Under the pieces are notes generated by a model. The model saw only the letters and a program-made list of their open reading frames with translations. It did not search any database and was not told the DNA's origin. Source: an uncultured Porphyromonadaceae bacterium (GTDB lineage Bacteria; Bacteroidota; Bacteroidia; Bacteroidales; Muribaculaceae). Taken from it: a stretch of 42,167 bases of DNA. The stretch is from contig CAMWTL010000002.1 in the NCBI GenBank assembly GCA_947177145.1, positions 1 to 42,167 of the forward strand, read 5' to 3'. Positions 2,389-29,097 of this stretch are shown here, piece after piece (position 1 is the first letter of the stretch; every line of letters starts with the position of its first letter). Both the position numbers and the translations under genes were made by a program.

Positions 2389-4584
2389 TTAGAGAGCGAC
2401 TTTCTTGCCGTTTACGATGTAGATACCCTTCTTGAGAGTATTGAGCTGAGAAGCGTCGTCAGTGTCAAGAACCTTTACACCGAGGAGGTTGTAAACCACG
2501 ATGCGGCTGCTTTCAACACCAGGAGCAACAGGAGCTACCTCGATTTCCTCAACAGCAGTTGTGCCGGCTTCGAGAAGAGCCTCAACCTTAACGTTGTTGA
2601 TGTAGAATGTACCGGCTTCCTCAGAAGTTGAGAGGTTGAATGCGATAGCCTTGCAACCGTCTGCACCAGCCTGATCAGCAGTGATTGTTACCTCTTTCTC
2701 AATTGACTGCCATTCGGGTTTAGCCTCAAGGTTGCCAAGCATATCCCAGTAATGATAGCTACCAGGTGCGCCGTGAGCCTGAGTCTGAACGGTACGATCA
2801 TTAGAGCTGTAGTAGTCAAAGCTTACCTTGATCTTAGTACCCTCTTCGAGAGCCTGATTGAACTCAATGAACATCTGAGAAGTCCAGTCTTCGATACCTT
2901 CGGTCTTAGCTACGATAGGAGCCTCGAATACCTTGCCTTCACCTGCAGGATTGTCAACAACAGCTGCTTCGCTATCGTTGCCGTCAACACGTGCGAGAAC
3001 GTTTACACTTGAGCCATCATTTGCATTACCGTTAGTAATGATTGACTGCCATTCAAGAACGGGCTCTTCACCTGATACGAGAACCTGCTCACCTCTTTCT
3101 ATTGTGATGTGGTTCATGTAGAAGATGCTCTCAGGCTTACCCTCATTGTCTTCCTTAGTGCAAAGGTTGAATGCGATACAACCCTGTGCGTCATGGCTTC
3201 CTACCATTTCTTCGTCGATTACCACTTCTGCCGTGAAAGTCTGCCATTCAGGTTTAGCTGTAAATGTACCGATGAAGTGCCAGAGGATATAGTCACCGGG
3301 AGAGTAATGAGACTGGGTATCAACGCGACGTTCTACTGTAGAATAATAGTCGAACTTAACCTTCATAATATCACCTACCTTGAACATATTGTCAGGATAC
3401 TGTACGAAGAACTGAACATGGTGGTCGGGGATAGGATCTTCCTCACCTTCAGCAACGAGTGGGTGTGCAGGCACATCAGCGTAGAATACCTTACCTTCAC
3501 CGTCAGGATTATCACAAACAGGAGCTATAGCATCTGTCCAAGCACCAACTTCGCCTGTACGACTCCAAACATAATCAGATTCGCCATTATCACCTGTCAA
3601 GTCGTCAATTGCCATTGACCATTCAGTCTTATAAACAGGTTCCGGTTCGGGTTCGGGCTCTACGAAATAAACCAGCTTCACCCATTCAACCTCGATAGTG
3701 CCAGCGAAATCATCCTCAGGGCTGAACATTACAAAGCAGTTCTCAGGAATTAAACCGGTTTCATCATCAACAGGAGCGTTGCCAAGTCGGATTACGACCT
3801 CATTCCAAACATCATAACCAAGGAATGAACCATCAACCATAGCACCCCAGTCGCCAAGAGAAACACCTACCTCAACATCGGCAGACGCTTTAACTTTTGC
3901 AATAACACCGTAGTCTAATTCCGGCTCGAGTTTGAGACCTTCCATAACGTTGAAAACGTCATCACCGGTAGCTACAAGAACACCATCAACGAGTTCTGCA
4001 CTGGCACCGTCATAATCATAGGAACCAAGAGTAGAGAAGTTGACTTCAGATACATCCTGAGCATTGTCAAGAGAAATCGGCATAAGAGGAGTAGACTCAG
4101 GCTCACAATGACCCTTGCTGATCACTACCCATGCGATATTGAGTTCTCCATCATAACCACCTGGCTGGAACATGAAATCCAAAGGATTGTTAGCTGTTCT
4201 GGTAGTCATTGTGCATGAGCTGGCAGCCCATTTTTCATCATAAGTGATTTTGTTAGACTGATCGTCATCTGCCAATCCAAAGAAATCATCACCACTCCAG
4301 TTACCTACAGCAAAGGCAGTAGCACCTTTTTTGCTTGCCTTAATAGCCATAGTAATTGTGTAGTCAGTCTCCGGCTCCAACTGAGCTTCAGCAGCTTTAA
4401 ACTGCCACCAACCACTACCTGAAGCATTCAGGCACTGATTTTCCATTGTCAGAGTAACACCATCAGGTACACCCCAAGGATACTCTCTCATTTTGGTAAA
4501 GTCGTATGTAGCGACTACCTCTTGAGCGCAAGCCACTCCTGCCATTGAAGCAAGAGCAAGCATCGAAAGAAAAAATTTCTTCAT
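2389..4584 (-). CDS. Secreted multi-module carbohydrate-binding-like protein with short C-terminal sorting-like motif
   Basis: 731 aa; signal peptide MKKFFLSMLALASMAGVACA. Two N-terminal modules resemble each other (LEPETDYTITMAIKAS / LEPELDYGVIAKVKAS). After an EPEPEPEP linker come two further homologous modules (KVKFDYYSTVERRVDTQSHYSPGDYILWHFIGTFTAKPEWQTF / KVSFDYYSSNDRTVQTQAHGAPGSYHYWDMLGNLEAKPEWQSI). C-terminus VVYNLLGVKVLDTDDASQLNTLKKGIYIVNGKKVAL. Confidence 0.8.
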   Translation of the reverse strand: MKKFFLSMLALASMAGVACAQEVVATYDFTKMREYPWGVPDGVTLTMENQCLNASGSGWWQFKAAEAQLEPETDYTITMAIKASKKGATAFAVGNWSGDDFFGLADDDQSNKITYDEKWAASSCTMTTRTANNPLDFMFQPGGYDGELNIAWVVISKGHCEPESTPLMPISLDNAQDVSEVNFSTLGSYDYDGASAELVDGVLVATGDDVFNVMEGLKLEPELDYGVIAKVKASADVEVGVSLGDWGAMVDGSFLGYDVWNEVVIRLGNAPVDDETGLIPENCFVMFSPEDDFAGTIEVEWVKLVYFVEPEPEPEPVYKTEWSMAIDDLTGDNGESDYVWSRTGEVGAWTDAIAPVCDNPDGEGKVFYADVPAHPLVAEGEEDPIPDHHVQFFVQYPDNMFKVGDIMKVKFDYYSTVERRVDTQSHYSPGDYILWHFIGTFTAKPEWQTFTAEVVIDEEMVGSHDAQGCIAFNLCTKEDNEGKPESIFYMNHITIERGEQVLVSGEEPVLEWQSIITNGNANDGSSVNVLARVDGNDSEAAVVDNPAGEGKVFEAPIVAKTEGIEDWTSQMFIEFNQALEEGTKIKVSFDYYSSNDRTVQTQAHGAPGSYHYWDMLGNLEAKPEWQSIEKEVTITADQAGADGCKAIAFNLSTSEEAGTFYINNVKVEALLEAGTTAVEEIEVAPVAPGVESSRIVVYNLLGVKVLDTDDASQLNTLKKGIYIVNGKKVAL

Positions 4585-4650
4585 GCGTTTAGAATTTGAT
4601 TAATAATTATGGTTAACTAAAAAATTGTCTTGACTTAGATATTTACTCCG

Positions 4651-4681
4651 CAAAATTAGTATTTAATATACTGCCCCCCAA
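4651..4681 (-). promoter_or_regulatory. Bacteroidetes-type promoter for the 731-aa CBM-like gene
   Basis: Reverse complement reads TTGG-N(about 20)-TAATTTTG, matching the -33 TTTG / -7 TAnnTTTG consensus; about 65 nt upstream of the ATG at 4584. Confidence 0.6.
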
Positions 4682-4822
4682 TTATATAAATGCTCAATAC
4701 ATACTTAATCGTAACAACCCACAAAAAAAGTGTAACAATGGCGTTCAGATTCGTAACATAAAAATGCAACATCGGAGTTAAGCATCTATCAATCAATCTA
4801 TTCATAAAATTTATATAAATTT

Positions 4823-4876
4823 ATAAAAGTTTAGGAGGACATACCCGTTGACGGGTATGTCCTCCTAAACTTTTAT
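4823..4876 (-). terminator. Very strong terminator / 26-bp perfect inverted repeat downstream of the GH10 operon
   Basis: ataaaagtttaggaggacatacccgt-tg-acgggtatgtcctcctaaacttttat; arms 4823-4848 and 4851-4876 are perfect reverse complements. Confidence 0.85.
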
Positions 4877-4899
4877 GATATGGAATTGCTTCGGAAGGC

Positions 4900-4926
4900 G
4901 ATTCGGAAATCGCCTATCCATACGCG
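4900..4926. repeat. Dispersed intergenic repeat, copy 1
   Basis: gattcggaaatcgcctatccatacgcg; 25/27 identical to 33639-33665. Copy 1 also forms a small hairpin ggcgatt-cgga-aatcgcc (4898-4915). Confidence 0.7.
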
Positions 4927-4937
4927 ATAGTCATATA

Positions 4938-6209
4938 TTATTTGCCGGCGAGTGCCTCACAGAAGCTGGCATATGCAGGTTTGCGCTCAAAGCCTGTACC
5001 GGCAGCTGCGTTATACTCTGTCCAAAGACCGATGGGGCAATTGGCACGCCAGCCACTCTTGGCATTGGCATCAGTCTGTGCCCACTGGCAGATACCATAC
5101 TGCTGGGCTACGGGGATAATCTCAAAATACTTCGAGATAATGAACTTGTAGTAGTCACCCATTGCCTTATGCTGCTCCAAGGTTACATCAGCTGTTGCAA
5201 TGGACTGTCCCTCGGCATCATCGATACCCATATCAAGCTCTGTGATTCTTATAAGCTTGCCGGAAGCTGCCAAGGTATTGAGCATCTTTACTACGGCATC
5301 CTCGCGACGTTTCTGCTCGGTAGGATTACAGCTATAGCTGACGTGCATCTGGCTACCGATACCGTCAATCTTGGTGACACCGTCGGACTCCCACTTCTTA
5401 ATCCACTCAACGAGCTTGTCAGTCTTGAGGGTATTGTTGTAGGCTGCCTCAAGGTTATAGTCGTTTATGAAGAGCTTCAGATCAGATGCAACGGCACCCT
5501 CCTGCTCCGCATAGTGCTGACGAGCATACTTCACGACGTTACGCACGAAGTTCTCTCCAAGATAATCAGCCCAGTAGAAAGCACCCTTATCAGGAATGCT
5601 CTCAGTGGTTCTGAGTACACCATCATCCAAGATACACTCGTTAACAGCATCCCAAGCCTTCACATAGCCTCTGGTGGCATCCATCATACCGCCAATCCAG
5701 CGATCGAGTTCAGCGTCAATAATGGCATACTGCTTCTCGGCAACTGTACCCTCCTCATCATCCTCAAGGTCTGCCAAGAGGCTGTTGAGATAGTTGGTGT
5801 TCTGCTGTGCATGCCAGCAAAGAGTGTGACCGTAAATCGACATCTCAGCAGCTTCGGCAGTTTCAACAAATTTCTCAACAGTTGAGAAATCCATAGTGCC
5901 GTCGTCCTGCACTACGGAGGCATACTTCATCTCGTTGCCGGCAGTCATCTGATCGAAATTACTGTTAGTAACGCGGTAGATGAGACCTTTGGCGTTATAG
6001 TCGCCGGCACCCACACCTGTTCCTAAGAGGAAACCGGGATGAGCTGCACGGTCAATATAGCTCTTCAGCGGGGCGTAATCGTTGAGATACTCGTAATCTA
6101 TGATGCTCTGAGGCTTCTCCACAGGATAGTAATCGACAGTAGTGTCGGCACATCCCGTCAGTATCAAGCCGATGGCTCCAAGAGCGGCTATTTTGATATA
6201 GTTTTTCAT
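4938..6209 (-). CDS. xyn10: GH10 endo-beta-1,4-xylanase, lipoprotein
   Basis: Lipobox LILTGC; GH10 signatures GHTLCWHAQ, KAWDAVNE (acid/base E), IRITELDMG (nucleophile E), WRANCPIGLW near the C-terminus. Confidence 0.95.
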   Translation of the reverse strand: MKNYIKIAALGAIGLILTGCADTTVDYYPVEKPQSIIDYEYLNDYAPLKSYIDRAAHPGFLLGTGVGAGDYNAKGLIYRVTNSNFDQMTAGNEMKYASVVQDDGTMDFSTVEKFVETAEAAEMSIYGHTLCWHAQQNTNYLNSLLADLEDDEEGTVAEKQYAIIDAELDRWIGGMMDATRGYVKAWDAVNECILDDGVLRTTESIPDKGAFYWADYLGENFVRNVVKYARQHYAEQEGAVASDLKLFINDYNLEAAYNNTLKTDKLVEWIKKWESDGVTKIDGIGSQMHVSYSCNPTEQKRREDAVVKMLNTLAASGKLIRITELDMGIDDAEGQSIATADVTLEQHKAMGDYYKFIISKYFEIIPVAQQYGICQWAQTDANAKSGWRANCPIGLWTEYNAAAGTGFERKPAYASFCEALAGK

Positions 6210-6284: not shown

Positions 6285-7358
6285 TTATTCAAGGACATAG
6301 TTAAACCACTCCTGTTTGTTCTGGCGGTCGCGGAGCACCATGCTTTCATCACACTTAAGCTCGTAGTAAGCCATAGTCTTCTTAGGCTCGTGAATCATAT
6401 ACTCGAAACGAAGAGTATAGTTCAGCTTCATAAGGTCGCGGTCTCTGTCGCCGAAAGCCTTAGGCTCACCATTTTCTTTCCATGTGCCTGAACCGGAAGC
6501 AGTAACACCGTCGGAAAGGGAAGTGATAGTGATGTTGCCGTCATCATGGATATCAAGAAGAAGGTCGCATACAATGTGTACCTCATCCTTCTTACCCTTC
6601 TTGTTGATGATAGGCATATCATACTCCTTAGTGTAGACAACCTGATTGAGGGCTTTTGTCTTCAGATAGCGCAGAGAAGCCTTCTCCCAGTACTGTACAT
6701 TGCGGTCATCAGTCTTGACTTCACCATTATCATCAATCACGTCGGTACCCTTGCTCAGCCAGCAACCGTCATATCTGTTCTTATACTTCACAGCATAAAG
6801 TGTGAAGTCTTTCGGCTGAACCGACCAGTCATCGGCATTGCGACGGTCAGGATTCTCGACACCATCTTTAGCCTTACCACTGAGAATTGAATCGGCGGAA
6901 TTAACCAAAAGAATAGGTAAAACATAGTTCACATCAATGCTCTTGGGATCGGCAAAGTAAGCATCGGTGAGCTGTACCTCAACTCCTCCTAACACATCCC
7001 CCTTCTTGATGACCATACGGTCAGTTGATAGGGAGTAATAAGACTCGGGAAGGGGCAATACAGGTTCGCCGTTCTCGAAATAGAGTCCGTCACAAAGCTC
7101 ATTGGCGACACGGAACGTTACCGAATGATCGGCACGGTTCTCGTTGACACCGCCAAGCACAGCCTTGATGTCGAACTTGTGGGCATTGTCCTTGGAATTG
7201 TCCACATCTGCCTCATAGCCGAGAGTGATTGTGCGGACAGGATTCGGGTAAGCAAACGAGATTGTCTGATACTCGAAATCGGGATAATCCACATCACTGT
7301 TGTGGCAACCAGCAAGGAGCACACCCAAGGCGAATATTGAGAAAATCGATTTTTTCAT
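6285..7358 (-). CDS. xusE: DUF1735-containing surface glycan-binding lipoprotein (XusE-like)
   Basis: Lipobox VLLAGC. YYSLSTDRMVIKKGDVLGGVEVQLTDAYFADPKSIDVNYVLPILL resembles the BT_3987-like/DUF1735 domain. Positioned between susD and GH10 as in xus loci. Confidence 0.75.
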   Translation of the reverse strand: MKKSIFSIFALGVLLAGCHNSDVDYPDFEYQTISFAYPNPVRTITLGYEADVDNSKDNAHKFDIKAVLGGVNENRADHSVTFRVANELCDGLYFENGEPVLPLPESYYSLSTDRMVIKKGDVLGGVEVQLTDAYFADPKSIDVNYVLPILLVNSADSILSGKAKDGVENPDRRNADDWSVQPKDFTLYAVKYKNRYDGCWLSKGTDVIDDNGEVKTDDRNVQYWEKASLRYLKTKALNQVVYTKEYDMPIINKKGKKDEVHIVCDLLLDIHDDGNITITSLSDGVTASGSGTWKENGEPKAFGDRDRDLMKLNYTLRFEYMIHEPKKTMAYYELKCDESMVLRDRQNKQEWFNYVLE

Positions 7359-7396: not shown

Positions 7397-9175
7397 TTAC
7401 CATCCGGCGTTCTGCTGAAGATTGCTGAACTTCAAAGTCTCTGAATAAGGGATAGGACCATAGTACATGTAATCCTTGTAATTGCGAGTGTCAACATCGA
7501 ATACAGAGTAAACGCCGTCTTCGATATGCATACCTTTGGCAGTCTCGTTGAGATCGGCTTTCCAACGACGGAGATCGTAGAAACGGAAGCCTTCGAAGCA
7601 AAGCTCAAGACGACGCTCGTTGCGGATAAGCTTACGCATCTCCTCCTTGCTGCTCTTGCAGCTCTCAAGATAGGCATCACCATTCTCAAGACCAATGAGA
7701 GCACGGCTGCGGAGAGCCTTGATCACATCGTAAGCGGAGTAGCCGTTGGAACCTGAACCTGTCGGTCCCCAAGCCTCATTTGCAGCCTCAGCATAGTTGA
7801 GGAAGAACTCGGTGTAGCGGAGACGTGCTGTGTAATGGTTCTTGTCAACGATGTTGCTTGAGTTAGCGTTCACATCCATACGGAGATGCTTCTTCATGTA
7901 GTAACCTGTACGGGTTGAGGTGGTAATCATATCAAGACCGTCGTTGGTGTTGGAATCGGCAGCCGTATTGATTACAGTGTTGGCTGTGCCGGCAGTAGCC
8001 CCGTTATAGATGATGTAGTCATAGAAACGCTGGTCGCGGTTCTTGTAAGGATTCTGGGGGTCGTAACCCGACAGAGGATCGGTGATAGGATAACCGTTAT
8101 CCATCGGGAAAGCATCCACAAGGTTCTGTGTTGGGTTGATGCGTCCCTGGCCATAGAGTGAGGGAGGGAAGTAAGTAGACTCACGGTCATGGTTCTCACC
8201 CTTCTCAGTACGCCAGATTACCTCGGGAGGACAGTCGCCGTCCTGAAGAGCATCCATATTGACGTCACAATACCATGTGCCACCATCCTCAGCCATACCT
8301 GAAATGCCGTTAATGTGCTTAAGAACACCGGCAGCGGCATTGGCAGCAGTCTCCCAAGTCACGCCCGACTTCTCGAAAGCAGGACTTGCTGCGAGAAGAG
8401 AAGCGCGAGAGATGAACGCCTGCACAATCTGACCGCTGATACGGCCCATGAATCCTGCACCGAATACACGGTTGGCGTTACCCTCTGTGATGCCGGGATA
8501 TTTCTGCTGAAGCTCCGCAAGCGATGCGGGATCTTCCTGAGCATCATACGACTTAAAGGTAGCCGGAAGATACTTGAGAGCCTCGTTGAAATCCTCCATC
8601 ATAGAGTTGTAGCACTCAATGAAAGTATTACGGGGCACATTGAAGTTGCTTGTGGCATCCTCAGGCTCAAGAACGATGGGTATACCAAGAAGCTCACCTG
8701 AGTTGTCGATACCGGCGTGTGCCTGAAGGAGGTTATACATAAGGATGCCGCGAAGGGCACGAGCCTCTGCATAGAAACGGTCGTGGAAGCAAGCACTGGC
8801 AGCCTCATCCTTTGCCCACTCCACATCATCGATACGGCTGAGGAGCAGGTTACAATACTGTATACAGGTACGGGTCATCTCCCAACGGTTCATCGGATTG
8901 TTCTGAGAGGTCCAAGAGCCTGAAGCTATAAGGCGCCAGCTATTATTGGCTTCGTTGGAGACAGCATCATCGGTTCCCGCCTCACTCAGATTGAAGACAT
9001 CGAATGAGGGCATGAAGGCATAGACGTTACCCAACACATTCTCGGCATATGATGAGTTCATCACCAGATAGTCGATGGGAAGGTTATTCTCCGGCAGCGG
9101 CTCAAACACATCGTCGCAAGAGACGAAGGCACCTGCCATCAGAGCGAATACACCTGCTTTTATTATCTTGTTCAT
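7397..9175 (-). CDS. xusD: SusD/RagB-family glycan-binding lipoprotein (second pair, XusD-like)
   Basis: 592 aa; lipobox GAFVSC; typical SusD features (EARALRGILMYNLLQAHAG..., RNERRLELCFEGFRFYDLRRWK, C-terminal LQQNAGW). Confidence 0.93.
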   Translation of the reverse strand: MNKIIKAGVFALMAGAFVSCDDVFEPLPENNLPIDYLVMNSSYAENVLGNVYAFMPSFDVFNLSEAGTDDAVSNEANNSWRLIASGSWTSQNNPMNRWEMTRTCIQYCNLLLSRIDDVEWAKDEAASACFHDRFYAEARALRGILMYNLLQAHAGIDNSGELLGIPIVLEPEDATSNFNVPRNTFIECYNSMMEDFNEALKYLPATFKSYDAQEDPASLAELQQKYPGITEGNANRVFGAGFMGRISGQIVQAFISRASLLAASPAFEKSGVTWETAANAAAGVLKHINGISGMAEDGGTWYCDVNMDALQDGDCPPEVIWRTEKGENHDRESTYFPPSLYGQGRINPTQNLVDAFPMDNGYPITDPLSGYDPQNPYKNRDQRFYDYIIYNGATAGTANTVINTAADSNTNDGLDMITTSTRTGYYMKKHLRMDVNANSSNIVDKNHYTARLRYTEFFLNYAEAANEAWGPTGSGSNGYSAYDVIKALRSRALIGLENGDAYLESCKSSKEEMRKLIRNERRLELCFEGFRFYDLRRWKADLNETAKGMHIEDGVYSVFDVDTRNYKDYMYYGPIPYSETLKFSNLQQNAGW

Positions 9176-9190
9176 GTTGTCGTTTTAGTT

Positions 9191-12034
9191 TTAGAAGTTT
9201 ACTTTAACACCGAAGTTGTAGCTGCGGGTCTGAGGACTGCCGCCAACTGTGGTCTCACGATATTTCTTCTCCTTGCATGCCCGCCAGAGGTCATTGCCAT
9301 TAACGTAGAGCTGAAGCCCTTTAACAAACTTGTGGTCAAACCACTTCGAGGGGAAGTCGTAGGTAAGCTGGATCTGATCCAAGCAGAAAGTGTCAGAATC
9401 ATACATCCAGTAGTCGGAGGTAACAAAGTTTAGGGCACCACTCTGAGTGGTGAGGCGGGGATAAGTGGCAGTGGCAGCAGTCTCGGGAGTCCAGCGTCCG
9501 CGAACTATCTCTGAATACTTGCGGTCGCCATAAACCCAGGCAGCCTCATTATCCTTAATTCCGTTACCACCTGCCCAACCTGTTGCGGCTACGAAGAGGG
9601 TAAAGCCCTTATAACCGAGAGTAAGGTTCATACCATAAGTCCAAGGATTATCCCAACGACCGATGATTACCATATCTTTGCTGTCGATGATACCGTCACC
9701 GTTGACATCCTCATATTTAAGGTCGCCGGGCTTGGTATTGTTGTTGATGAGAGCACTTCTGGAAATCTCCTCCTCGTTCTGGAAGTAGCCAAGACAACGG
9801 TAGCCACGCAATGCGCTTCTGTTCTGTCCCTCGCTCTTCTGCCATTCATACTCAACGTTCTCGCTGATCTTGGTGTTCTTTGTAGTTACATACATTACAT
9901 TTGCACCGAAGCCCACATTGAAGTCGCCGAATTGCTTGTTGAAATTAGCCATGAGTTCAAAACCCTCCACCTTATAAGCATCATAGTTGATGTAAGGGAT
10001 GAAAGAGCTGGCACCCTCGCTACCCCAACCTGCAAGCATATAGCTCGGATAGAGGTTGGTAGCCTGAATAGGAAGACCATCCACCTTAGTGTTGAAATAT
10101 GCACCGCTAAGGGTAATCATATTGTTCACGAAGCCCATATCAAGACCAACGTTAAACTCATTGCGCTTCACGAATGTGAGGTTGGGGTTTGTACCCTGAG
10201 TACTCATAAAGGTCTGGATACCTTTGTGACCGTCGTTCCAACCCCACCATGCGCCGTTAGCGGTGAACTTGCCGTCCCACATATAGAAGCTGTCATCGAG
10301 ATTACCATTCTTGAGCATATCGATATCCTGAAGGATACGGCCGTAAGTAGCATTGATGCGGAGTTCGCTGATAGCCTCGCTGTCTTTCAGGAATTCCTCC
10401 TGACCGATACGCCAGCCGATACTTCCCACAGGTGAGAAACCGTTGCGGTGACCCGGTTTGAAGCGTGCTGAATGGTTGATAGCACCGTTAAACTCTGCAT
10501 AGTAGCGATTGGCATAGTTATAAGCCGCACGGAAACCGAGAGTTGCATTGGTATTACGGTGATACTGGCCGGAGTAAGTACGCTTGTAGCCATGAGCCAC
10601 AACAGTAGCGTCTACATTGTGAACATCGTTGAAGGTGTTCTTATAGTCAAACTGACCGGAGAAAAGGAGAGTCTGACGCTCCGAACCGCCACCTACGTCC
10701 ATATTGCCGCTGGAGAAGTCATCATTATACTTCTTAAGACCGGCAATAACATCCTTGCCACCGTAGTTGCTCCAAGTTGCCTCGTAGACAGCATATCTGG
10801 GAGAAATAGAAGCAGAATAGATGGTGTTGTAGTCCACTGCACCGTGAGCGGTGAAAGAGAGACCCTTGACAACCTTGCCGAAGTCGATGCGGATACCGGC
10901 ATCAAACTGGAGCTGACGGGTGGTAGACTTGGTATATCCACCGGCATACATAGCGGCAAACGCATTGCTCTGATACTGCTGAGTACCACCGAGGAGATAC
11001 TTGCCACCGATAAGGTGATTACTGTTGTTCACCAAAGCCCAGCTCTCCTCATCGTCTGCCTCGATAGCGTCGATAGGAATGAAAGGAACGAAGGGTGAGG
11101 TACCCTGCACTGCCGGACGCATAGTAGCGGCATTGTTCCAATAGCCGGCATGGTCATAGCGATTGTCGTAGAAAGTCGCGCTGGTGTTTACCCAACCTGA
11201 CACCCAATCGTTGAGATTGAGGTCGATATTGCCACGCAAGCTCAGACGGGTCTGACCATTGTTCTTACCTTCACCGAATTTGATGATGTCGTCTACATGA
11301 TAAACGTCAACAAGGGCGTAGAATTGTGCAAACTTGGCACCGCCTGTAAATTCAGCCTGACCCTCATATTTCATATACTGCTTCTTCAGATATTCGTCGG
11401 AGAAGAAGTTGATATCAGGATAGCGTGAGAGGTTGCGGTGAGAGCCATAGTTGTAGATGTCCTCAGCTGTGAAAGCTGCGCTAAGACCATCATTGGCACG
11501 TGCCTCATTGTAGAGGGTCATGTATTCGGCTGCACCGAGATATTTCTGGTATCTCTTGGGTACGAACATCTGGGCATTGCCACGCACAGAGACATGGAGT
11601 CCGTCGGGACGGCCACGCTTGGTAGTGATAAGCACGGCACCCTTCGCAGCGGTAGAACCGTAAAGCACCACTGCCTGAGCACCTTTAAGGAATGTGATGC
11701 TCTCGATCTCCTGAGGAAGAATATTATTGTCATCACGAGGCACACCGTCAACCAACATCAGCATTCCGCCCATATCCCAGCTTGTATTGGTCAGGGCACT
11801 GACATTCTGAAAAGTGTATGTGTTGAAGCTCTTCTTCTCAAGCTCAACCATATTCACAGAAGAGACGCCGCCGAGAATATCGCTACCGTCACTTGTGCGG
11901 AAAGGGAGCTGGATTCCCTGTGGCAGCGAATCTGCCGGCACGAATGTCTCGTCGTCCTGGGCGAAAGCACCGGGAGTGAAGAGCAGAGCGGCTGCCGCTG
12001 CGAGGGGATATATGATGTTATTTGAATTTTTCAT
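9191..12034 (-). CDS. xusC: SusC/RagA-family TonB-dependent transporter, short form lacking the N-terminal carboxypeptidase-regulatory domain (second pair, XusC-like)
   Basis: 947 aa; truncated plug MLMLVDGVPRDDNNILPQEIESITFLKGAQAVVLYGSTAAKGAVLITTKRG; C-terminal SYNFGVKVNF beta-strand. Confidence 0.93.
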   Translation of the reverse strand: MKNSNNIIYPLAAAAALLFTPGAFAQDDETFVPADSLPQGIQLPFRTSDGSDILGGVSSVNMVELEKKSFNTYTFQNVSALTNTSWDMGGMLMLVDGVPRDDNNILPQEIESITFLKGAQAVVLYGSTAAKGAVLITTKRGRPDGLHVSVRGNAQMFVPKRYQKYLGAAEYMTLYNEARANDGLSAAFTAEDIYNYGSHRNLSRYPDINFFSDEYLKKQYMKYEGQAEFTGGAKFAQFYALVDVYHVDDIIKFGEGKNNGQTRLSLRGNIDLNLNDWVSGWVNTSATFYDNRYDHAGYWNNAATMRPAVQGTSPFVPFIPIDAIEADDEESWALVNNSNHLIGGKYLLGGTQQYQSNAFAAMYAGGYTKSTTRQLQFDAGIRIDFGKVVKGLSFTAHGAVDYNTIYSASISPRYAVYEATWSNYGGKDVIAGLKKYNDDFSSGNMDVGGGSERQTLLFSGQFDYKNTFNDVHNVDATVVAHGYKRTYSGQYHRNTNATLGFRAAYNYANRYYAEFNGAINHSARFKPGHRNGFSPVGSIGWRIGQEEFLKDSEAISELRINATYGRILQDIDMLKNGNLDDSFYMWDGKFTANGAWWGWNDGHKGIQTFMSTQGTNPNLTFVKRNEFNVGLDMGFVNNMITLSGAYFNTKVDGLPIQATNLYPSYMLAGWGSEGASSFIPYINYDAYKVEGFELMANFNKQFGDFNVGFGANVMYVTTKNTKISENVEYEWQKSEGQNRSALRGYRCLGYFQNEEEISRSALINNNTKPGDLKYEDVNGDGIIDSKDMVIIGRWDNPWTYGMNLTLGYKGFTLFVAATGWAGGNGIKDNEAAWVYGDRKYSEIVRGRWTPETAATATYPRLTTQSGALNFVTSDYWMYDSDTFCLDQIQLTYDFPSKWFDHKFVKGLQLYVNGNDLWRACKEKKYRETTVGGSPQTRSYNFGVKVNF

Positions 12035-12061
12035 TATTGAAAGGTAATTATGGGGTTATTA

Positions 12062-14008
12062 TCACCATCCCGGATTCTGATACAATTCAGGATACATTGA
12101 CACGTCTTTCACCTTCAAGGGGAGCCAATAGTGCTTCTCGGTAAGAGGACGCTCTACGACCACTTTTTCGCTAAAGCCTACAACCGTATTCTGAGTGGGG
12201 TCAGTCTTGTTGATACCCACTGAAGAATCCTTATCGACACCGGCAAGATTGCCTGAACGTGTAAATTCCTGAGAGGTCTTGATGTTGTAGGGATATTTGT
12301 CTATGAGCATCCAGCGACGCAGGTCGGTGAAACGGTGAGACTCGAAAGCAAGCTCGACAGCACGTTCGCGGCGAACCTCGCCCATGAAAGCATCAAGAGA
12401 GCCGGTGAACTTCGCGTTGACATTGGCAACCCCGGCACGCTTACGGATAGTATTGATTGCCTCAACGGCTGTCTTTGAGAATTTGCCGGATTTACCCTGT
12501 GCCGACCCATAGCCGTTGCAGGCACTCTCAGCATACATCAGATATATATCGGCAAGACGCATATAGGGGATGAGCATATGGTTGTTTGCACCCCAGTTGC
12601 CACCGCCTTGGTTGTCCCACTGGTTAAAGTCGTCGCGCACAAACTTATAGTTCAGATAACCTGAGCGGCTACCTTCCGTATCAGAGCGGAGCTTACCACC
12701 TGTGTATAGAGGAGCATAGCGAACATCATCAGCCTGCGGGTTGCCACCGAGTTCGAGCTTGCAGCCGTCGAAACGGATGTCATGGTAGAAGCGGGGGTCA
12801 CGACCCTTCCAAGGATGAGTCTTATCGAAACCTGAATCGGGATCGTCAAGAGGAAGACCGTTAGCCATACCGTAGTAGTTTACGTAGTTGGCAGTCGGGT
12901 GATAGCAGATACCGTTGTTGGTAAGGAACTTTGTGCCGTAGTCGTTGGTCTGTCCCCAGTTGGAGCGGTTCCAGTCGTCACACGGATTGCGGTAGATAGC
13001 CTCAGTAGAACCGGGCATCAAGCCACCTCTTGAGTGAGAAAGGAAGAGATCCTTATAGTTCTCAAACTTAACGAGTGAATACTGAGTCTGACCAGACTCG
13101 ACGAGGTTGAGAAGCTCACCAAACACGTCGGCAGCACGCTTACAGAAATCCTCATTATATCCAAGAGCGTTGCCGGGGAGCTTTGTGCCACCGTGGGCAG
13201 CTATGTTGGGGTCGTTATTCATAAGGGGTGAACCTGCCCAAAGGAGGTTTTTGCCAAGGTAGCCAAGAGCCATAATCTTGTTGATACGGAGCTTATTGTT
13301 ACCCTTTGTAGCGGCACCTGCCTGAGTGCTGTCCCAGTCGATAGGAAGGAGTGAAGCAGCTTTCTGAAGGTCTTCTGCTGCTTTCTCTGCACATTCAGCA
13401 TAGCTGAGACGGGGATTGTCAAGAGCAGCACTACCGAGAACCTCATCAATGTAAGGAAGACCACCGAAATACTGCATAAGCATGAAATGGTAGAAACCAC
13501 GGAAGAAGTAGAGCTGACCTTCGATCATATTGCGCTCCTCCTGAGTTGCCTGAGTGAGGCGATCCATATTAGCTAGACCGAGGTTAGCCTTACGGATAGC
13601 ATACCAAGCACCCTTCCAGAGTGTGGGATGCTGCCCCACGTCGGAATACTTACTTGTGTCAAAGCCGCCAATGTCCATAAAACCGCAGCCCCAGCCGTCG
13701 TGCTCAGCCTGCCAGCCCCAGAAGTCACCCTTATCAACCTTGTCACACATCATGTAGGTCTCGTTGATGCCGGTGAATTCATCTTCGCCCCAGTTCCAGG
13801 AATTGTTCCAATAGCAGGTTGTGAAGTTAGGAAGACAGAAATACATCTCTTCCACATAGCCCTGGAAGTTCTTGAAATTCTTGAAAGCCTCATCCTCCGA
13901 AATCTCGCTCTCAGGGGCTTTGTCGAGATAGTCGGTGCAGCTTGTGAGATTACCACAAGCCATGAAAGCTGCAAGAACTGCAAATATATAGATTTTAATT
14001 TTTTTCAT
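12062..14008 (-). CDS. xusB: SusD/RagB-family lipoprotein (first pair, XusB-like)
   Basis: 648 aa; lipobox GNLTSC; FFRGFYHFMLMQYFGGLPYI, RRERAVELAFESHRFTDLRRW, ends LYQNPGW. Confidence 0.94.
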   Translation of the reverse strand: MKKIKIYIFAVLAAFMACGNLTSCTDYLDKAPESEISEDEAFKNFKNFQGYVEEMYFCLPNFTTCYWNNSWNWGEDEFTGINETYMMCDKVDKGDFWGWQAEHDGWGCGFMDIGGFDTSKYSDVGQHPTLWKGAWYAIRKANLGLANMDRLTQATQEERNMIEGQLYFFRGFYHFMLMQYFGGLPYIDEVLGSAALDNPRLSYAECAEKAAEDLQKAASLLPIDWDSTQAGAATKGNNKLRINKIMALGYLGKNLLWAGSPLMNNDPNIAAHGGTKLPGNALGYNEDFCKRAADVFGELLNLVESGQTQYSLVKFENYKDLFLSHSRGGLMPGSTEAIYRNPCDDWNRSNWGQTNDYGTKFLTNNGICYHPTANYVNYYGMANGLPLDDPDSGFDKTHPWKGRDPRFYHDIRFDGCKLELGGNPQADDVRYAPLYTGGKLRSDTEGSRSGYLNYKFVRDDFNQWDNQGGGNWGANNHMLIPYMRLADIYLMYAESACNGYGSAQGKSGKFSKTAVEAINTIRKRAGVANVNAKFTGSLDAFMGEVRRERAVELAFESHRFTDLRRWMLIDKYPYNIKTSQEFTRSGNLAGVDKDSSVGINKTDPTQNTVVGFSEKVVVERPLTEKHYWLPLKVKDVSMYPELYQNPGW

Positions 14009-14020
14009 TTTGTTGAGAGG

Positions 14021-17000
14021 TTAGATGTCAAACTTGATACCAAGGTTGAAACGGCGAACGGTAGGATAAGCACCCTGTGATGCGTTACCGGTGCCGGCGA
14101 AGTTGTTCTCACGGTCGTCAGGAAGCTTAGACCACTGCCAGAGGTTGTTGCCGTTAACGTAGATCTTAAGATTGCTTAAGCCGATCTTCTTGATCCAGCC
14201 GCTTGTCCATGTGTAAGCGATCTCGGCATTCTTCAGACGGAAGTAAGAACCGTCATAGTGGTTGTAGCGGTTGTCCCAGCCGTTGTAGTAGCTCGGAGTG
14301 GTGTTCCAAACGGGAAGAGGACGGTCGGGATCAGTCATACCGGGAGCCCAGAAGTTCACGCCTGCGAAGAGGGTGTTGAGGTTGCCGCGATAAGACTCGA
14401 ACACTACGGTACGCTGAACATTGGTTACACCGTACATCTGAACATATACGCTCCAGCCTTTCCAATCGAAACCGATAGTGGCGTTGTAGTTGTTCTGCGG
14501 GATACCGCTGTAGCCGTAAGGTGTGGAGTCGGAAGAGTCAATTACACCGTCACCGTTGTAGTCAACCATGATGGGCTGACCGGGAAGCTTCTGGTTGTCG
14601 TTAGTGTTGTGGGGAGTCATCGCGATAACGTCGTCCCAAGTCTGGGCATATCCGGCGTCATAAACAATGCGGTCCTGACCGATCATATAGCCTTCGCTCT
14701 TGCGATAAGCCTCCATAAGGGCGGGATCATCCTTCTTTGTAACGATGTTCTCCGCATGGGTCATATTGAGGTTAGCCCAAAGGTGAAGATCGTTGGGGAA
14801 TGTGTAGTTGAAGCGGAGTTCCAACTCATAACCCTTGCTGTCTACAGTACCGAGGTTAGCCATAGGAGCGCTGCCGCCGAAGTAAGACGGGATTGCACGG
14901 TCGCCACCGCTAACGAGGATGTCCTTACGTTTCTCCTTGAAAAGCTCGATAGTACCGCTCACGAGGCTATGATAAAGTGTGAAGTCGATACCTAAGTTCT
15001 GCTTGATAGCTTTCTCCCAGTGGATATTGGGGTTGCCAAGAGAAGCCTCCTTATACCAAGTGTAGGGACTGCCGCCATTAGGATAGAAGGAGCCTGTTCC
15101 ACCGGCTGCCCACTGTGTCTGATAGAGGAAGCGGCCACCGGCTGAGTCGTCGCCGACCTCACCGAGAGAGTAACGCACCTTGAAGTTGTCAAGCCAACCA
15201 CGGCTCCAGTTCATGAATTTCTCCTCGCTGAGACGCCATCCAATAGCGCCGGAGGGGAAGAAGTCGAAACGATAGTCACGGCCGAATTTCTCAGAACCGT
15301 TGTAAGCGCCGTTAAACTCGAAGAAGTATTTCTCGGCAAAGTTATAAGTGGCACGGAAAGCCCAGTCCTCACGATAGCGGGTGAACTCGGTACCATAAGT
15401 TACCTCATTACGGTTGAATACGCCCATGGCGGTCACGTCATGCTGACCGAACTGGCGGCCGTAGAAGAGCTGTGCCTGATAGAAGAGGAAGCGGTTGGTT
15501 GCCCAGTTGTTGATTTCACCTGTACGGGTGCTCCACTTGAGGTCCTCATTGAAGTCAAGACCGTTAGGCTGAGTCTTCTTGTCCCATATTACCTCACCGG
15601 TGTCAGGGTCAATCCATTTGTACTGGGGTGAATACCAGTTTTCACAGATACCACGGTTGATCTCCTGCATATTGTTGTCCCAAGAGATTGTACCACTGAT
15701 GCGGAGACCCGGGGTGATGAATTTCAGATCCTGATCAAGAGTAAAGTCGGTATTGATACGGGTAGTGGTAGTGTAGCCTACACCGCCGGTAGCAACGCCC
15801 TGCATTGAGTTAGGTGCGCCCTGTGTATTGGCAGGATAGTAGCCCCAAGTGCCGTCGGAATACTGAGGACGGAAAGCGTCGGAAGGTGCGCTATAAGCAG
15901 CCTGCCAGAGCTGGGTTGTACCCCAGTCGTTGTCACCTGCGCCCCAAGGAGATTTCTTCTCACCGTGTGAACCGGAAAGGTTAACCTTGAACTGAGTGGT
16001 CGGTGTAAGGGTGAAGTCGAGGTTAGAACGAATGTTGACACGGTTGTAACCGAAACCACCGTTGTAGCCGCGTTTTACGTCATACTCCTTATAGAGGTCA
16101 CCCTCATGCAGGAAGTCGATAGCAGCATAATATTTAACGAACTTCGTACCACCACGCACGTTGATGTTAGGGTTGTATGCCATAGCGTGGCTCTTGAAAA
16201 GCTCTTTCTCCCAGTTTACATTAGGATAACGCTCATACTCCTCAAGGTTGGCAGGGTGAGCATACTTGTCGATAATGTCCAGAGGAGTCATATCAACCCA
16301 AGATGCGGGCTGGAGACCAAGCTCACGCTCGATGATGCGGTTTCTCATGTAAAGTGCCTCGGGAGAACCCTCGGTGCCGGGGAGGTGAGAAACCACCTTG
16401 GCAACTGCGTTGAGAGAAACACCGATTTGTGCTCTACCCTCCTGACCACGCTTTGTGGTGATGAGGATTACACCGTTTGCACCCTTCACACCATACACGG
16501 CGGTTGCGGATGCATCCTTCAGTACTGACACTGTTTCTACAGAGTTAATATCGACAGTGTTCATAGGACGTTCGATACCATCGACGAGGACGAGCGGGTT
16601 AGAACCGTTCCAAGATGTCTGACCACGGATCACGATCTGCGGGTCTTCGGCACCCGGCATACCGGTTGATGCCATTGTGGTCACACCGGGGAGATTACCG
16701 GTGAGGGCTGCACCAAGGCTGGATACACCACCGGTCTTAGCAAGCGTAGCACCTGATGTCTGGGCGATAGCACCTACGACTGATGCTTTCTTCTGCTGGC
16801 CGTAACCTACGACCACAAGCTCATCGAGGGATTCGCCGCTGTCTTTCATCACGACGTTAATGACGCTGCGTCCGCCCACTTTCTCTACCACCGGCTCCAT
16901 GCCGACGTAGGTGAAACGCAGCTCCGCTTTCTTAGGATTAGCCACCTCAATCTTGTAATTGCCGTCGAGGTCAGTGGCAGTACCACCGGGAACTCCGACA

Positions 17001-17146
17001 ACCATTACTGTCACACCGATCAGGGGTTCACCCGTCTGATCGGTAACGTTACCTTTGACTAAATCAGCCCGGGCGGAGAACGCTCCCGTCACGAGCATGG
17101 TCATCAGCAACGCAATGTAATGAAAAGTCTTCTTTACATTTTTCAT
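14021..17146 (-). CDS. xusA: SusC/RagA-family TonB-dependent transporter (first pair, XusA-like), full-length
   Basis: 1041 aa; carboxypeptidase-regulatory domain (VKGNVTDQTGEPLIGVTVMVVGVPGGTATDLDGNYKI), TonB-box-like LDELVVVGYG, plug NPLVLVDGIERPMNTVDINSVETVSVLKDASATAVYGVKGANGVILITTKRG. Confidence 0.96.
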   Translation of the reverse strand: MKNVKKTFHYIALLMTMLVTGAFSARADLVKGNVTDQTGEPLIGVTVMVVGVPGGTATDLDGNYKIEVANPKKAELRFTYVGMEPVVEKVGGRSVINVVMKDSGESLDELVVVGYGQQKKASVVGAIAQTSGATLAKTGGVSSLGAALTGNLPGVTTMASTGMPGAEDPQIVIRGQTSWNGSNPLVLVDGIERPMNTVDINSVETVSVLKDASATAVYGVKGANGVILITTKRGQEGRAQIGVSLNAVAKVVSHLPGTEGSPEALYMRNRIIERELGLQPASWVDMTPLDIIDKYAHPANLEEYERYPNVNWEKELFKSHAMAYNPNINVRGGTKFVKYYAAIDFLHEGDLYKEYDVKRGYNGGFGYNRVNIRSNLDFTLTPTTQFKVNLSGSHGEKKSPWGAGDNDWGTTQLWQAAYSAPSDAFRPQYSDGTWGYYPANTQGAPNSMQGVATGGVGYTTTTRINTDFTLDQDLKFITPGLRISGTISWDNNMQEINRGICENWYSPQYKWIDPDTGEVIWDKKTQPNGLDFNEDLKWSTRTGEINNWATNRFLFYQAQLFYGRQFGQHDVTAMGVFNRNEVTYGTEFTRYREDWAFRATYNFAEKYFFEFNGAYNGSEKFGRDYRFDFFPSGAIGWRLSEEKFMNWSRGWLDNFKVRYSLGEVGDDSAGGRFLYQTQWAAGGTGSFYPNGGSPYTWYKEASLGNPNIHWEKAIKQNLGIDFTLYHSLVSGTIELFKEKRKDILVSGGDRAIPSYFGGSAPMANLGTVDSKGYELELRFNYTFPNDLHLWANLNMTHAENIVTKKDDPALMEAYRKSEGYMIGQDRIVYDAGYAQTWDDVIAMTPHNTNDNQKLPGQPIMVDYNGDGVIDSSDSTPYGYSGIPQNNYNATIGFDWKGWSVYVQMYGVTNVQRTVVFESYRGNLNTLFAGVNFWAPGMTDPDRPLPVWNTTPSYYNGWDNRYNHYDGSYFRLKNAEIAYTWTSGWIKKIGLSNLKIYVNGNNLWQWSKLPDDRENNFAGTGNASQGAYPTVRRFNLGIKFDI

Positions 17147-17185: not shown

Positions 17186-18913
17186 TTAGTCGATTGTCTC
17201 GGCATTGGAGGCATATAGTCCCACCATCGTACCCGTGAAGCCACCGGCTTCTGCTGTGGAGGTGAATCCGGCGTCGACACCCTCGGCAAGGCTCTGCCAG
17301 TTCTTTCCACCGTCGGTAGAATAATGGAAACCATATTTCAGACCGTTACCCGAGATTCTGAAATCCACCGCCGAGAGATCAGCTTCCACAGGCACCTCTG
17401 CGATGGTGTGACTGCCGTCTTCGGCAATCTTGCGCACCTCGAGTTTATGGACATCGCCGTTCTTGGTGCGGGCAAGGAGGTATTGGTGGGTCTCATCTTT
17501 CAGAAGGAGCATACCGGCAAGCTGGCTGTCGTTCTCCGGGAGGAAGGTCATATGAGTGTCGGCGGTGAAGTTGTGGTGATGCAGACGACGGCACACATAC
17601 GGGAGCGGCTGCTTCGAGGTAGACTTCACATCGGCACACTTGATGGTGAGATGGCCGGGATTGTCGGTGAGGGAATAGTAGTCGGTGGCAGGGCCGCGGA
17701 GAGTAAGCCAAGCCTGGTCGAGAGTAGAATCATTAAACTGATCGTCGCGCTCGAAGTTTCCGAAAGTAAGATTCTCATTTCTTGTCACACCGGGCTTCTC
17801 AACTACCAAGGGGACAGTCTCACCGTTCTCAACGAATACGGGCCATTTGTCATCAGTCCATTTCACGGGGAGCATAAATGTCTCGCGGCCGAGATTCTCC
17901 TTGTTGCCGGCTACAGGACGGCAAGCCAAGAATACGCCCCACCATTCGCCTTCGGGAGTCTGAACGAGATCGGCATGACCGGCACAGGTCACGGGATTCT
18001 CACGGCTCGGGTCGAGGGTGCGCTGAGTGAGGATAGGATTACCTGAATAAGGGGTATAGGGACCGAAAGGTGTCGGACCGCGATAAATAACCTCGCTATG
18101 CCAATCGCTCGTGCCGCCCTCGGCAGTCATCAGATAATATGTGCCGTCTACATTATAAATATGAGGGCCTTCACACCAGATGGGTTTCTCCTCGGGGCGG
18201 CAGCCTTTGTTGACTACGATCTTGCGCTCGCCTACACACTTGTCGGTAGCAGGGTCGAACTCAACCACACGTACGGTGCGGTGGCCGGGATACTCAGGCT
18301 TATAGTCGGGAGCGTCGTCGTTGTTGACGATATAGCCCTTACCATCCTTGTCGAAGAAGAAAGCGGGGTCGATGCCCTGCACTTCGGGAAGCATGATCGG
18401 GTCGCTCCAGTCGCCATAGGGGTCTTTGGTCTTCACGAAGAAGTTACCGTCACCCACATTGGTGGTGATCATGTAGTAGGTCTCGTTGGCTGGATTGTAG
18501 GCGATGTCGGGCGCAAAGATGCCGCCGCTCACATGCTGCTTCTCCATGTTGCGAAGCTGTGAAGGACGGTCAAGAATATGCCCCACCTGTTCCCAGTTGA
18601 CGAGATCGCGGCTATGGAACAAGGGAACCCCCGGATAGAATGTGAAAGACGACAGAGCTAAGAAGTAATCCCCCTTACCGTTGGTAGTGATCGACGGGTC
18701 GGAATACCAACCGGCGAGCACCGGATTGTAGAAGGAACTTTCTCCCGGAAGAGGATTGGCTTTGTAGTAGTCATCCTGACCGGTGTAGTGGAACGAATCG
18801 AAAATCGCCACCGAACTCTGAGGCTCCACACCCTTCGAGGATGCCTTGCAGCCTCCCAAGATCGACAAGGGAAGCAGAAGAGCCGTCATAGCTGTCAGGG
18901 TTAGATGTTTCAT
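17186..18913 (-). CDS. GH43-family glycosidase (beta-xylosidase / alpha-L-arabinofuranosidase) with C-terminal beta-sandwich domain, lipoprotein
   Basis: Lipobox SILGGC; FYNPVLAGWYSDPSITTNGKGDYFLALSSFTFYPGVPLFHSRDLVNWEQVGH, GGIFAPDIAYN, GIDPAFFFD, WCEGPHIYN. Ends 40 nt from xusA start. Confidence 0.9.
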   Translation of the reverse strand: MKHLTLTAMTALLLPLSILGGCKASSKGVEPQSSVAIFDSFHYTGQDDYYKANPLPGESSFYNPVLAGWYSDPSITTNGKGDYFLALSSFTFYPGVPLFHSRDLVNWEQVGHILDRPSQLRNMEKQHVSGGIFAPDIAYNPANETYYMITTNVGDGNFFVKTKDPYGDWSDPIMLPEVQGIDPAFFFDKDGKGYIVNNDDAPDYKPEYPGHRTVRVVEFDPATDKCVGERKIVVNKGCRPEEKPIWCEGPHIYNVDGTYYLMTAEGGTSDWHSEVIYRGPTPFGPYTPYSGNPILTQRTLDPSRENPVTCAGHADLVQTPEGEWWGVFLACRPVAGNKENLGRETFMLPVKWTDDKWPVFVENGETVPLVVEKPGVTRNENLTFGNFERDDQFNDSTLDQAWLTLRGPATDYYSLTDNPGHLTIKCADVKSTSKQPLPYVCRRLHHHNFTADTHMTFLPENDSQLAGMLLLKDETHQYLLARTKNGDVHKLEVRKIAEDGSHTIAEVPVEADLSAVDFRISGNGLKYGFHYSTDGGKNWQSLAEGVDAGFTSTAEAGGFTGTMVGLYASNAETID

Positions 18914-18959
18914 GTGTTGGTGAAGTTTTTATTGGTTATTGTTCATAATTTTCACAATG

Positions 18960-18990
18960 CAAAATTATACCTTTGCAAAGCAAGAGGCAA
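18960..18990 (-). promoter_or_regulatory. Bacteroidetes-type promoter for the GH43-xusABCDE-xyn10 operon
   Basis: Reverse complement: TTG (18988-18990) - N20 - TAATTTTG (18960-18967), about 47 nt upstream of the GH43 ATG. Confidence 0.6.
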
Positions 18991-19175
18991 CTAATTGAAT
19001 CTTTAATACATTCCTATTTGTAATAATACTCAAAAAGAGTGTCGCAAAGACATTCGCATTCGTAACATCAAACTGATACATTTTCCATAAGTCTTTACAT
19101 ACCACTGCCTTATTTCTTGGCTTAGAAATCTCCCCGGCAGTACTTCAAATGCTAATCGGTAAGGGGAGGTGAAAA

Positions 19176-19212
19176 TTGACACACCCCTTTCCAAGAAAAG
19201 AGGTGTGTCAAA
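19176..19212 (-). terminator. Terminator-like hairpin downstream of the second GH43
   Basis: ttgacacacc...aaaagaggtgtgtcaa: 10-bp perfect outer stem plus an imperfect inner stem, just past the stop at 19243. Confidence 0.6.
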
Positions 19213-19242
19213 GATTGCAAATTTTGTATTGTAAGGCTGTTA

Positions 19243-20856
19243 TCAGAGAGAAGATTCGGGGGTAGAGAGACGGAACCAGTCGACATCCACATAGCCGCCG
19301 GGTTGGTCGGTAGCATAGTTAAATATGGCGTAGCGAGTGCCCATAAAGAAGCGGCGATAATCAAATACCATCTTGAAAGGCTTCCCTATCTTATGCCATT
19401 CGTTGCCGTCGAAGCTATAGCTGAAGGTTGCCATATCCTGACCGGGATTGAAATCGGTGTCGATGGCAAACCATACGGAATCGCCATTGAAGGGTATTCT
19501 CTCCCATTCCTCATCCACAGTCTTGGCAACGGTGTGACCCTCACCCATGACCATCGACGAGCTTCCGCATACTATATATTTCCCGTCAGGATTCTGCTCC
19601 ACGGTAAGCAATCCGCTGTCGCCGTTGAAGGCTGCGAATCCTGCCCGGTCGCCCGGTTTCATACCGGAAGTCTCAAGCTTGACCGCACCCCTTTCCATAG
19701 GGCCTGTCATGCGCTGGCTGATGGTGTTGCGTGCCTCATATAGATTTGTGACCGGCTTAGTGGTGTGGAGGCGAAGATAGCCATCACGGTCGGTGAGTGA
19801 CCAAGCGTCGTCAACCGGGTTATGGTTCCACTGCCAGAGTATAGACTTCTTACCGTTGGAAAACTCGTCGGAACTGTTGACACAGGCATTAGGATTAGGC
19901 ACTATCGTCTTTTCAACCTTTGCGGGCACTTTGCCGTCGGCATCGCCCAACATCGGCACATCACCCTCCCAATGACAGGGATTAAGGGTAAGAACACGTC
20001 CTACACCTCCACGGTCTTGGAATATCATACCCCAGAAATTGCCTTCCGTATCATCCACAAGGCAGCCCTGACCCACATAGGGAAAGCCGCCGAACTGTGA
20101 TTCGAGCACCACGTGCTTCTCATACGGTCCGGTAACGTTGTCAGCCACATAGCATAACTGGCGGCGCGGTTTACCGGCAGGCCATGAGATAACGAAGGCA
20201 TAGTATTTACCATTATATTTCACCACGCGACTACCCTCATGAAGCCCCATCTCCTCAGCGTCGGGGAAAATCACCACCTGATCTATCCCCCCCTCCTTAA
20301 CACCTGAAAAATCGGAATTAAGCTCTCTAAGACGAATTTCACCGCCGTTGTAGAAGACATATACACGGTCATCATCGTCAATGAGGAGCGAAGCATCGTG
20401 GAAATGATTGGTGCGGGTCACTAATTCCCACGGTCCGGCGGGATCAGTGGCAGTGTATATATAGGAGCGGTAAGGCTGATCGTTGGGTGAGAAAAGCACA
20501 TAGAACCGTCCGTTATGATAGCGGATGGAGGTAGCCCATTGTCCCTTGCCGTATACTGTTCCTCCCTCCAAATCGTATCGGGGAAGGTCAGTAAGTTTAT
20601 CGAACACATAGCCGATTGTCTCCCAATTCACGAGGTCGCGTGAGCGCATAACGGGGCAACCCGGCATCAGATGCATAGTAGTACTCACCATATAGAAATC
20701 ATCTCCTACACGGATCACATCGGGGTCAGGCACATCCGCCCAAATCACAGGGTTATGAAAAAACCCCTTCTCCCCTGCATGAAGCGGAGAGAAGGGGATT
20801 GTAGCGAGCAATATCGCCGTTCCTGAAACAATCTTTAATTTCCTTGAGATATGCAT
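19243..20856 (-). CDS. GH43-family glycosidase (resembles subfamily 12; arabinofuranosidase/xylosidase), secreted
   Basis: FHNPVIWADVPDPDVIRVGDDFYMVSTTMHLMPGCPVMRSRDLVNWETIGYVFD, GQWATSIRYHNGRFYVLFSPND, HDASLLIDDDDRVYVFYNG; signal peptide at N-terminus. Confidence 0.92.
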   Translation of the reverse strand: MHISRKLKIVSGTAILLATIPFSPLHAGEKGFFHNPVIWADVPDPDVIRVGDDFYMVSTTMHLMPGCPVMRSRDLVNWETIGYVFDKLTDLPRYDLEGGTVYGKGQWATSIRYHNGRFYVLFSPNDQPYRSYIYTATDPAGPWELVTRTNHFHDASLLIDDDDRVYVFYNGGEIRLRELNSDFSGVKEGGIDQVVIFPDAEEMGLHEGSRVVKYNGKYYAFVISWPAGKPRRQLCYVADNVTGPYEKHVVLESQFGGFPYVGQGCLVDDTEGNFWGMIFQDRGGVGRVLTLNPCHWEGDVPMLGDADGKVPAKVEKTIVPNPNACVNSSDEFSNGKKSILWQWNHNPVDDAWSLTDRDGYLRLHTTKPVTNLYEARNTISQRMTGPMERGAVKLETSGMKPGDRAGFAAFNGDSGLLTVEQNPDGKYIVCGSSSMVMGEGHTVAKTVDEEWERIPFNGDSVWFAIDTDFNPGQDMATFSYSFDGNEWHKIGKPFKMVFDYRRFFMGTRYAIFNYATDQPGGYVDVDWFRLSTPESSL

Positions 20857-21027
20857 TTGATCAGATTTTGAGGTTAATAATCCGGTTGTGACAACCGGGA
20901 CTTTAATTGAATTTTAACCTGTTCTATTATTCTAACTAACCTATACTATTTTTTATGGGACTTCAAAATATCATGTTATATTAGAAGAATCTCCGGAAGG
21001 GGTTTACCCGTCTGAATTTCTCTGATG

Positions 21028-21035
21028 CAAAATTA
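21028..21035 (-). promoter_or_regulatory. Candidate -7 box (TAATTTTG) for the second GH43
   Basis: Plus-strand gatgcaaaattacaaat; about 170 nt upstream of the ATG; no clear -33. Confidence 0.35.
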
Positions 21036-21152
21036 CAAATAATTCACAAGGGGGGCGTTAAAGGAAGTTGCAGCGACATTCCTACATGTGAGGGTAAGAT
21101 ACGGAATCGTAACATTCTGATGCCGCATTGTATCATTTCCTTATTTACCCTA

Positions 21153-22772: not shown

Positions 22773-22782
22773 ATGCAATGAG

Positions 22783-26820: not shown

Positions 26821-26903
26821 GGTGGATAGATTTGTATGCAAATTTACAAACTTTTCTTTACATCGTTATATAGCCCCACCCACATTTAATATGTCTAAAA
26901 ATG

Positions 26904-27015: not shown

Positions 27016-27046
27016 TTTGAAATTTACCTGAATATTGCTAACTTTG
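27016..27046 (+). promoter_or_regulatory. Bacteroidetes-type promoter for the GH67-GH115-DUF6057 operon
   Basis: TTTG (27016-27019) - N19 - TAACTTTG (27039-27046). The ORF-track start at 27035 lies inside this promoter, supporting translation start at 27077. Confidence 0.7.
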
Positions 27047-27076
27047 CATAATAAGTATCTTTTCCATATCTGCACC

Positions 27077-29050: not shown

Positions 29051-29097
29051 TTCACCGCAGCTTTAGTAGCTCACCTCCGAAAGAATCATAATTCAAT

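Follow-up and report, generated by a model that had tools for sequence, protein, structure and literature searches.

In the 42,167-nucleotide stretch of DNA analysed here (the window) lies a xylan locus whose binding and cutting functions were probably uncoupled in two evolutionary steps. In the first, which is supported for the binding modules designated type B, a copy of a CBM like those inserted in GH10 barrels would have passed into a distinct secreted protein whose gene lies directly downstream of the GH10 gene. In the second, also supported, the entire insert would have disappeared a single time, in one GH10 clade, and the secreted protein (hereafter the binder) would have grown from two modules to three and then to four.

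The window is a xus-type xylan utilization locus on the minus strand. Two SusC/SusD pairs resembling xusA-D (7397..17146) are followed by a XusE-like lipoprotein gene (BT_3987-like_N plus DUF5627; 6285..7358), a GH10 xylanase gene (4938..6209) and then the gene of the 731-aa binder (2389..4584), all on the minus strand, and this order matches the published order xusA-B-C-D-E-xyn10C (PMC7848910). Upstream of the SusC/SusD pairs lie two GH43 genes with a SASA-type esterase gene (17186..22838, minus strand), a hybrid two-component regulator gene (22783..26841, minus strand) and the genes of GH67 and GH115 alpha-glucuronidases (27035..31677, plus strand). An ORF at positions 2-1318, which we take to resemble a Bacteroidales AAA-ATPase-like/PD-(D/E)XK family, was also present downstream of the binder in locus L033. 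All genomes compared below are assemblies, many of them metagenomic.

The 423-aa product of the GH10 gene matched Pfam Glyco_hydro_10 at 2.1e-50 and contains both catalytic glutamates, Glu191 (WDAVNE) and Glu324 (ITELD), which identifies it as a GH10 xylanase. Its core phylogeny, the xus synteny and Gly91 at subsite -2 place it with the Xyn10C/Pm25 type, a glycine at this subsite being typical of the Xyn10C/Pm25 cluster (PMC7848910). Its signal ends in LTGC, and the enzyme is predicted to be a lipoprotein. The CBM insert that characterizes the Xyn10C/Pm25 type was sought between beta3 and alpha3 and was absent from the window GH10. Following HTLCWH, the insertion point holds only LEDDEEGTVAE (5736..5768, minus strand); in relatives the core is broken there, between window residues ~150 and ~157, by inserts of mostly 280-350 aa. 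A first-pass annotation of the window had read this enzyme as free of a CBM insert, and the comparison bears it out. The window GH10 is thus a derived relative of the Xyn10C/Pm25 type that has no insert.

Matching GH10s were found in 38 of 397 family genomes and in 28 of 393 order genomes. Across both sets, every other complete xus-type GH10 contained CBM sequence, nearly always as an insert, the exception being one genus with a permuted GH10 form. At the genus level, 23 of 111 genomes had a GH10 match and six of these 23 were insert-less; the six insert-less species all belong to one genus, a small group of gut bacteria of Muribaculaceae type. A tree of the GH10 core, computed without the insert region and including five insert-less sequences, grouped these five together (82/99), within a larger clade of 12 rows that also holds insert-bearing enzymes (97/90). 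Since the insert-less clade is nested among insert-bearing GH10s, we infer that absence is secondary and that the insert was lost once, in one clade whose bootstrap is moderate (82). Because the loss is a single event, its link with growth of the binder amounts to one correlation. In a sister GH10 (L076:7545-9446) the insert is shortened to 225 aa and its first module is a mere remnant; this enzyme may represent an intermediate stage of insert erosion. A second GH10, insert-bearing and 786-794 aa long, occurs in three of the insert-less species (G372, G332 and G248; loci L096, L097 and L098), adjacent to GH67 or near it and outside the xus operon.

The binder begins with a predicted signal peptide (MKKFFLSMLALASMAGVACA; 4525..4584) and continues with four CBM4/22-like modules: M1 and M2 of type A (4114..4518 and 3661..4065) and M3 and M4 of type B (3079..3630 and 2566..3063). 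A C-terminal tail (2389..2565) follows, all on the minus strand. M3 and M4 are 39% identical and the M1/M2 match is weak, and AlphaFold2 modelled four beta-sandwiches with pLDDT mostly 80-93, their relative placement being uncertain (pTM 0.42). This agrees with the earlier reading of the neighbouring gene product as two pairs of homologous beta-sandwich modules. Pfam CBM_4_9 matched M4 above its cut-off, and the combination of beta-sandwich fold and profile similarity marks the modules as CBM4/CBM22-like. The best single-domain Foldseek matches were to BiXyn10A CBM1 (4qpw and 4mgs; TM 0.74-0.75 on target); large multi-domain matches (Cry, reelin, EngBF) with TM ~0.15 were set aside as flexible-chain artefacts. 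A type A profile that included insert sequences reached 4mgs/4qpw at 2.4e-16, and the 731-aa protein alone, through M2, matched BiXyn10A CBM1 at only 0.12; the type B profile matched the Xyn10C CBM 4mgq weakly (0.07). The structural comparison with CBM families proposed in the first-pass annotation led to the GH10-inserted CBMs of BiXyn10A and Xyn10C as the closest solved structures.

Single-pass phmmer searches established homology between each of the four modules and the inserted CBMs of relatives' GH10s, with best E-values per module from 4e-10 to 9e-48 (8.5e-13 for M2, 8.9e-48 for M4). Each module matched 17-44 GH10 ORFs in a set of 660 ORFs, within which no match fell outside GH10s and binders, and an iterated module profile gave 0 matches to shuffled ORFs. 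Chance or low-complexity similarity was ruled out by these two controls.

The arrangement recurs in related genomes, as had been suggested for checking: all six insert-less GH10s have a binder of at least three modules directly downstream. Four of these proteins have four modules (731, 732, 736 and 728 aa) and two have three (549 and 571 aa). A two-module binder of ~340-390 aa (one ORF was called at 477 aa) is found directly downstream of 14 insert-bearing GH10s (L068-L072, L075-L079, L089 and L202-L204), so that the position is conserved in 20 loci. The literature covered, which included few subscription papers, describes no stand-alone binder next to a xus GH10 that lacks the insert. At L161:7798-8898, a binder relative containing a single B module occurs without an adjacent GH10. 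At L156:1-2019, 45 bp separate a divergent multi-CBM protein of 673 aa (cut) from the divergent GH10 that precedes it; the module profiles do not detect the ~151-aa insert of this GH10.

The order of events was read from module phylogenies. Module HMMs converged to one superfamily after five iterations, so subtype assignments rest on trees and not on HMM names; the tree of all 157 modules was poorly resolved and served only for choosing subsets. On the type B tree, the stand-alone modules, M3 and M4 included, fall into a single clade (91/81) that lies within the insert B modules, and a single change between insert and stand-alone was recovered in 95% of bootstraps. M3, a fast-evolving, long-branch copy of M4, is confined to four-module proteins. 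The AU test rejected a grouping of the window clade's B modules with the inserts of their own genus to the exclusion of other binders, with p 0.0006, an optimistic value because an earlier tree had preceded the choice of group. This clade, together with the two-module binders beside 14 insert-bearing GH10s, indicates that the binder predates insert loss. Judged from their tree, the type A modules have more than one source: module 1 of L066 and L067 groups with other binders, and M1, M2 and the second module of L066 and L067 group near GH10-insert modules (94/97); a shared origin for the clade's entire set of A modules was rejected (AU, p 0.003). Taken together, the module trees point to copying first, with insert loss and enlargement later and perhaps one more transfer from insert to binder.

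The first-pass annotation had proposed a gene split. That the GH10 is without inserted CBMs and that its neighbour consists of the same kind of CBM both hold. A literal split, in which the binder was made in a single event from the very insert lost by the window GH10, is nevertheless unlikely: for M3 and M4 the one-step version was rejected by the AU test above, these modules belonging with binders whose neighbouring GH10s still have the insert at the 14 loci. The type A modules are where such a split finds its arguments, since a second type A module occurs only in the binders of the insert-less clade, the set containing M1 and M2 lies with GH10-insert modules rather than with most other binders' A modules, and a single origin of all stand-alone A modules was borderline rejected (AU, p 0.049); yet uniting this set with the five sister insert modules alone was rejected as well (p 0.0235). 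Two-step uncoupling, as proposed at the outset, accommodates a more specific version, which we hold only tentatively and consider rather less probable than its negation: that the clade swapped the built-in CBMs of its xylanase for a trans-acting, T9SS-secreted multi-CBM protein, at least one module of which (the second type A) came from the lost insert.

Two further readings were considered. The binder might be an unrelated surface or adhesion protein standing by chance beside the GH10, with insert loss being decay and XusE and SusD binding sufficing. The lost binding residues of M2, the unlinked relative at L161 and a possible promoter of the binder's own fit this, but the conserved position directly downstream of GH10 in 20 loci, the proximity of the modules to GH10-inserted CBMs and the aromatic plus Q motif kept in M4 and M1 all make it improbable. 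An error of annotation or assembly is a barely credible explanation of the insert-less GH10: the assembly is fragmented and 72% complete, but open and conserved insert-less frames exist in six species, at 59-97% identity and each in its own assembly.

The inserted CBM4s of Pm25 bind xylan on their own, more tightly as tandem modules, and the tyrosine of their YxxQ motif is essential (PMC7848910). Among insert modules, an aromatic W or Y was present in 118/119 and Gln likewise in 118/119. In the binder, M4 has W567/Q570, and both W and Q are also present in M1; M3 retains Q but carries H at the position of the binding aromatic, and M2, the module with the weak single-sequence match to 4mgs/4qpw, has neither. 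By this W..Q pattern, M4 and M1 look competent and probably do most of the binding; M2 and M3 look altered, and M2, and perhaps M3, have probably diverged. The binder is predicted to bind xylan. Under two-step uncoupling, the GH10, as a predicted lipoprotein, would cut xylan at the cell surface, and the binder, with its predicted T9SS export, would retain xylan or oligosaccharides near the surface, replacing the lost inserted CBMs.

Enzyme and binder are probably exported by different routes. The GH10 has a lipoprotein signal, whereas the binder's tail resembles a T9SS type A sorting domain below threshold (20.4 bits against a curated cut-off of 23, for a family that also matches in a Bacteroides control). 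The T9SS translocon gene sprA was found in this genome, where it is split across two contigs; 18 of 20 relatives have sprA too. No lipobox was seen in the binder's signal peptide, which sets it apart from the SusE/SusF and SGBP surface lipoproteins.

The binder had also been credited with its own promoter and terminator. A TAATTTTG box (4651..4658, minus strand), which fits the -7 box TAnnTTTG of Bacteroidales, lies 74 bp upstream of the binder start and is also found in L033, a 97% relative. It is missing from the next two relatives, L065 and L200, and the gap between GH10 and binder is only 79 bp in L066 and 4 bp in L067, so that a separate promoter is plausible only in the window and in L033. 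A perfect 20-bp-stem, terminator-like hairpin lies between GH10 and binder (4828..4871), and a hairpin was found 3' of GH10 in most loci inspected.

Among known systems, the closest are GH10s of the Xyn10C/BiXyn10A/Pm25 type with tandem inserted CBM4/CBM22. They share with the window the xus synteny (two SusC/D pairs, XusE and GH10), the Gly at subsite -2 and the lipoprotein signal, and the C-terminal half of the window GH10 core is up to 71% identical to insert-bearing relatives. The window differs in that the beta3/alpha3 insert is missing and a second polypeptide carries the binding modules. Like SusE/SusF and SGBPs, the binder is a non-catalytic, secreted protein with tandem binding modules in a utilization locus, and it probably works like one; in contrast to them, it has no lipobox, a predicted T9SS tail and modules of the GH10-insert type, and its gene follows that of the enzyme, the usual SGBP position being held by XusE. 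The Pm25 deletion construct M6 is the same GH10 type without CBMs and was active in the laboratory, Pm25 without its two CBM4s keeping activity (PMC7848910). M6 was engineered, whereas the window would represent a natural loss accompanied by a separate binder.

These observations bear on why xus GH10s retain CBMs within the catalytic barrel, since Pm25 stays active without them (PMC7848910). Close relatives provide a natural series: insert only, insert with two-module binder, shortened insert with binder, no insert with three modules, and no insert with four. As natural loss and intermediate states occur in close relatives, the roles of CBMs in cis and in trans are directly testable with natural enzymes. 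If a swap to a trans-acting binder did take place, enzyme and binder would take different surface routes and their expression levels would be separable.

At least five genomes from a different Bacteroidales family contain circularly permuted GH10s of the same type (L144:6158-8038, L147:4434-6236, L206:2001-3857, L207:4668-6506 and L208:2453-4255, with a partial copy at L209:3393-4382). Natural circular permutation of GH10 was not described in the literature covered, again with few subscription papers. The order in these proteins is CBM remainder, barrel C-half, N-half and first CBM strands, with the breakpoint within the CBM: the CBM of unpermuted relatives aligns through its first strands with the last 48-49 residues and through its remainder with the N-terminus. 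Catalytic residues are kept, and a model with pTM 0.62 returned GH10 and BiXyn10A CBM1 in a fold search. In L144 and L207 the permuted gene lies directly downstream of an unpermuted, insert-bearing GH10, and this adjacency suggests that the permuted forms arose by tandem duplication and partial deletion.
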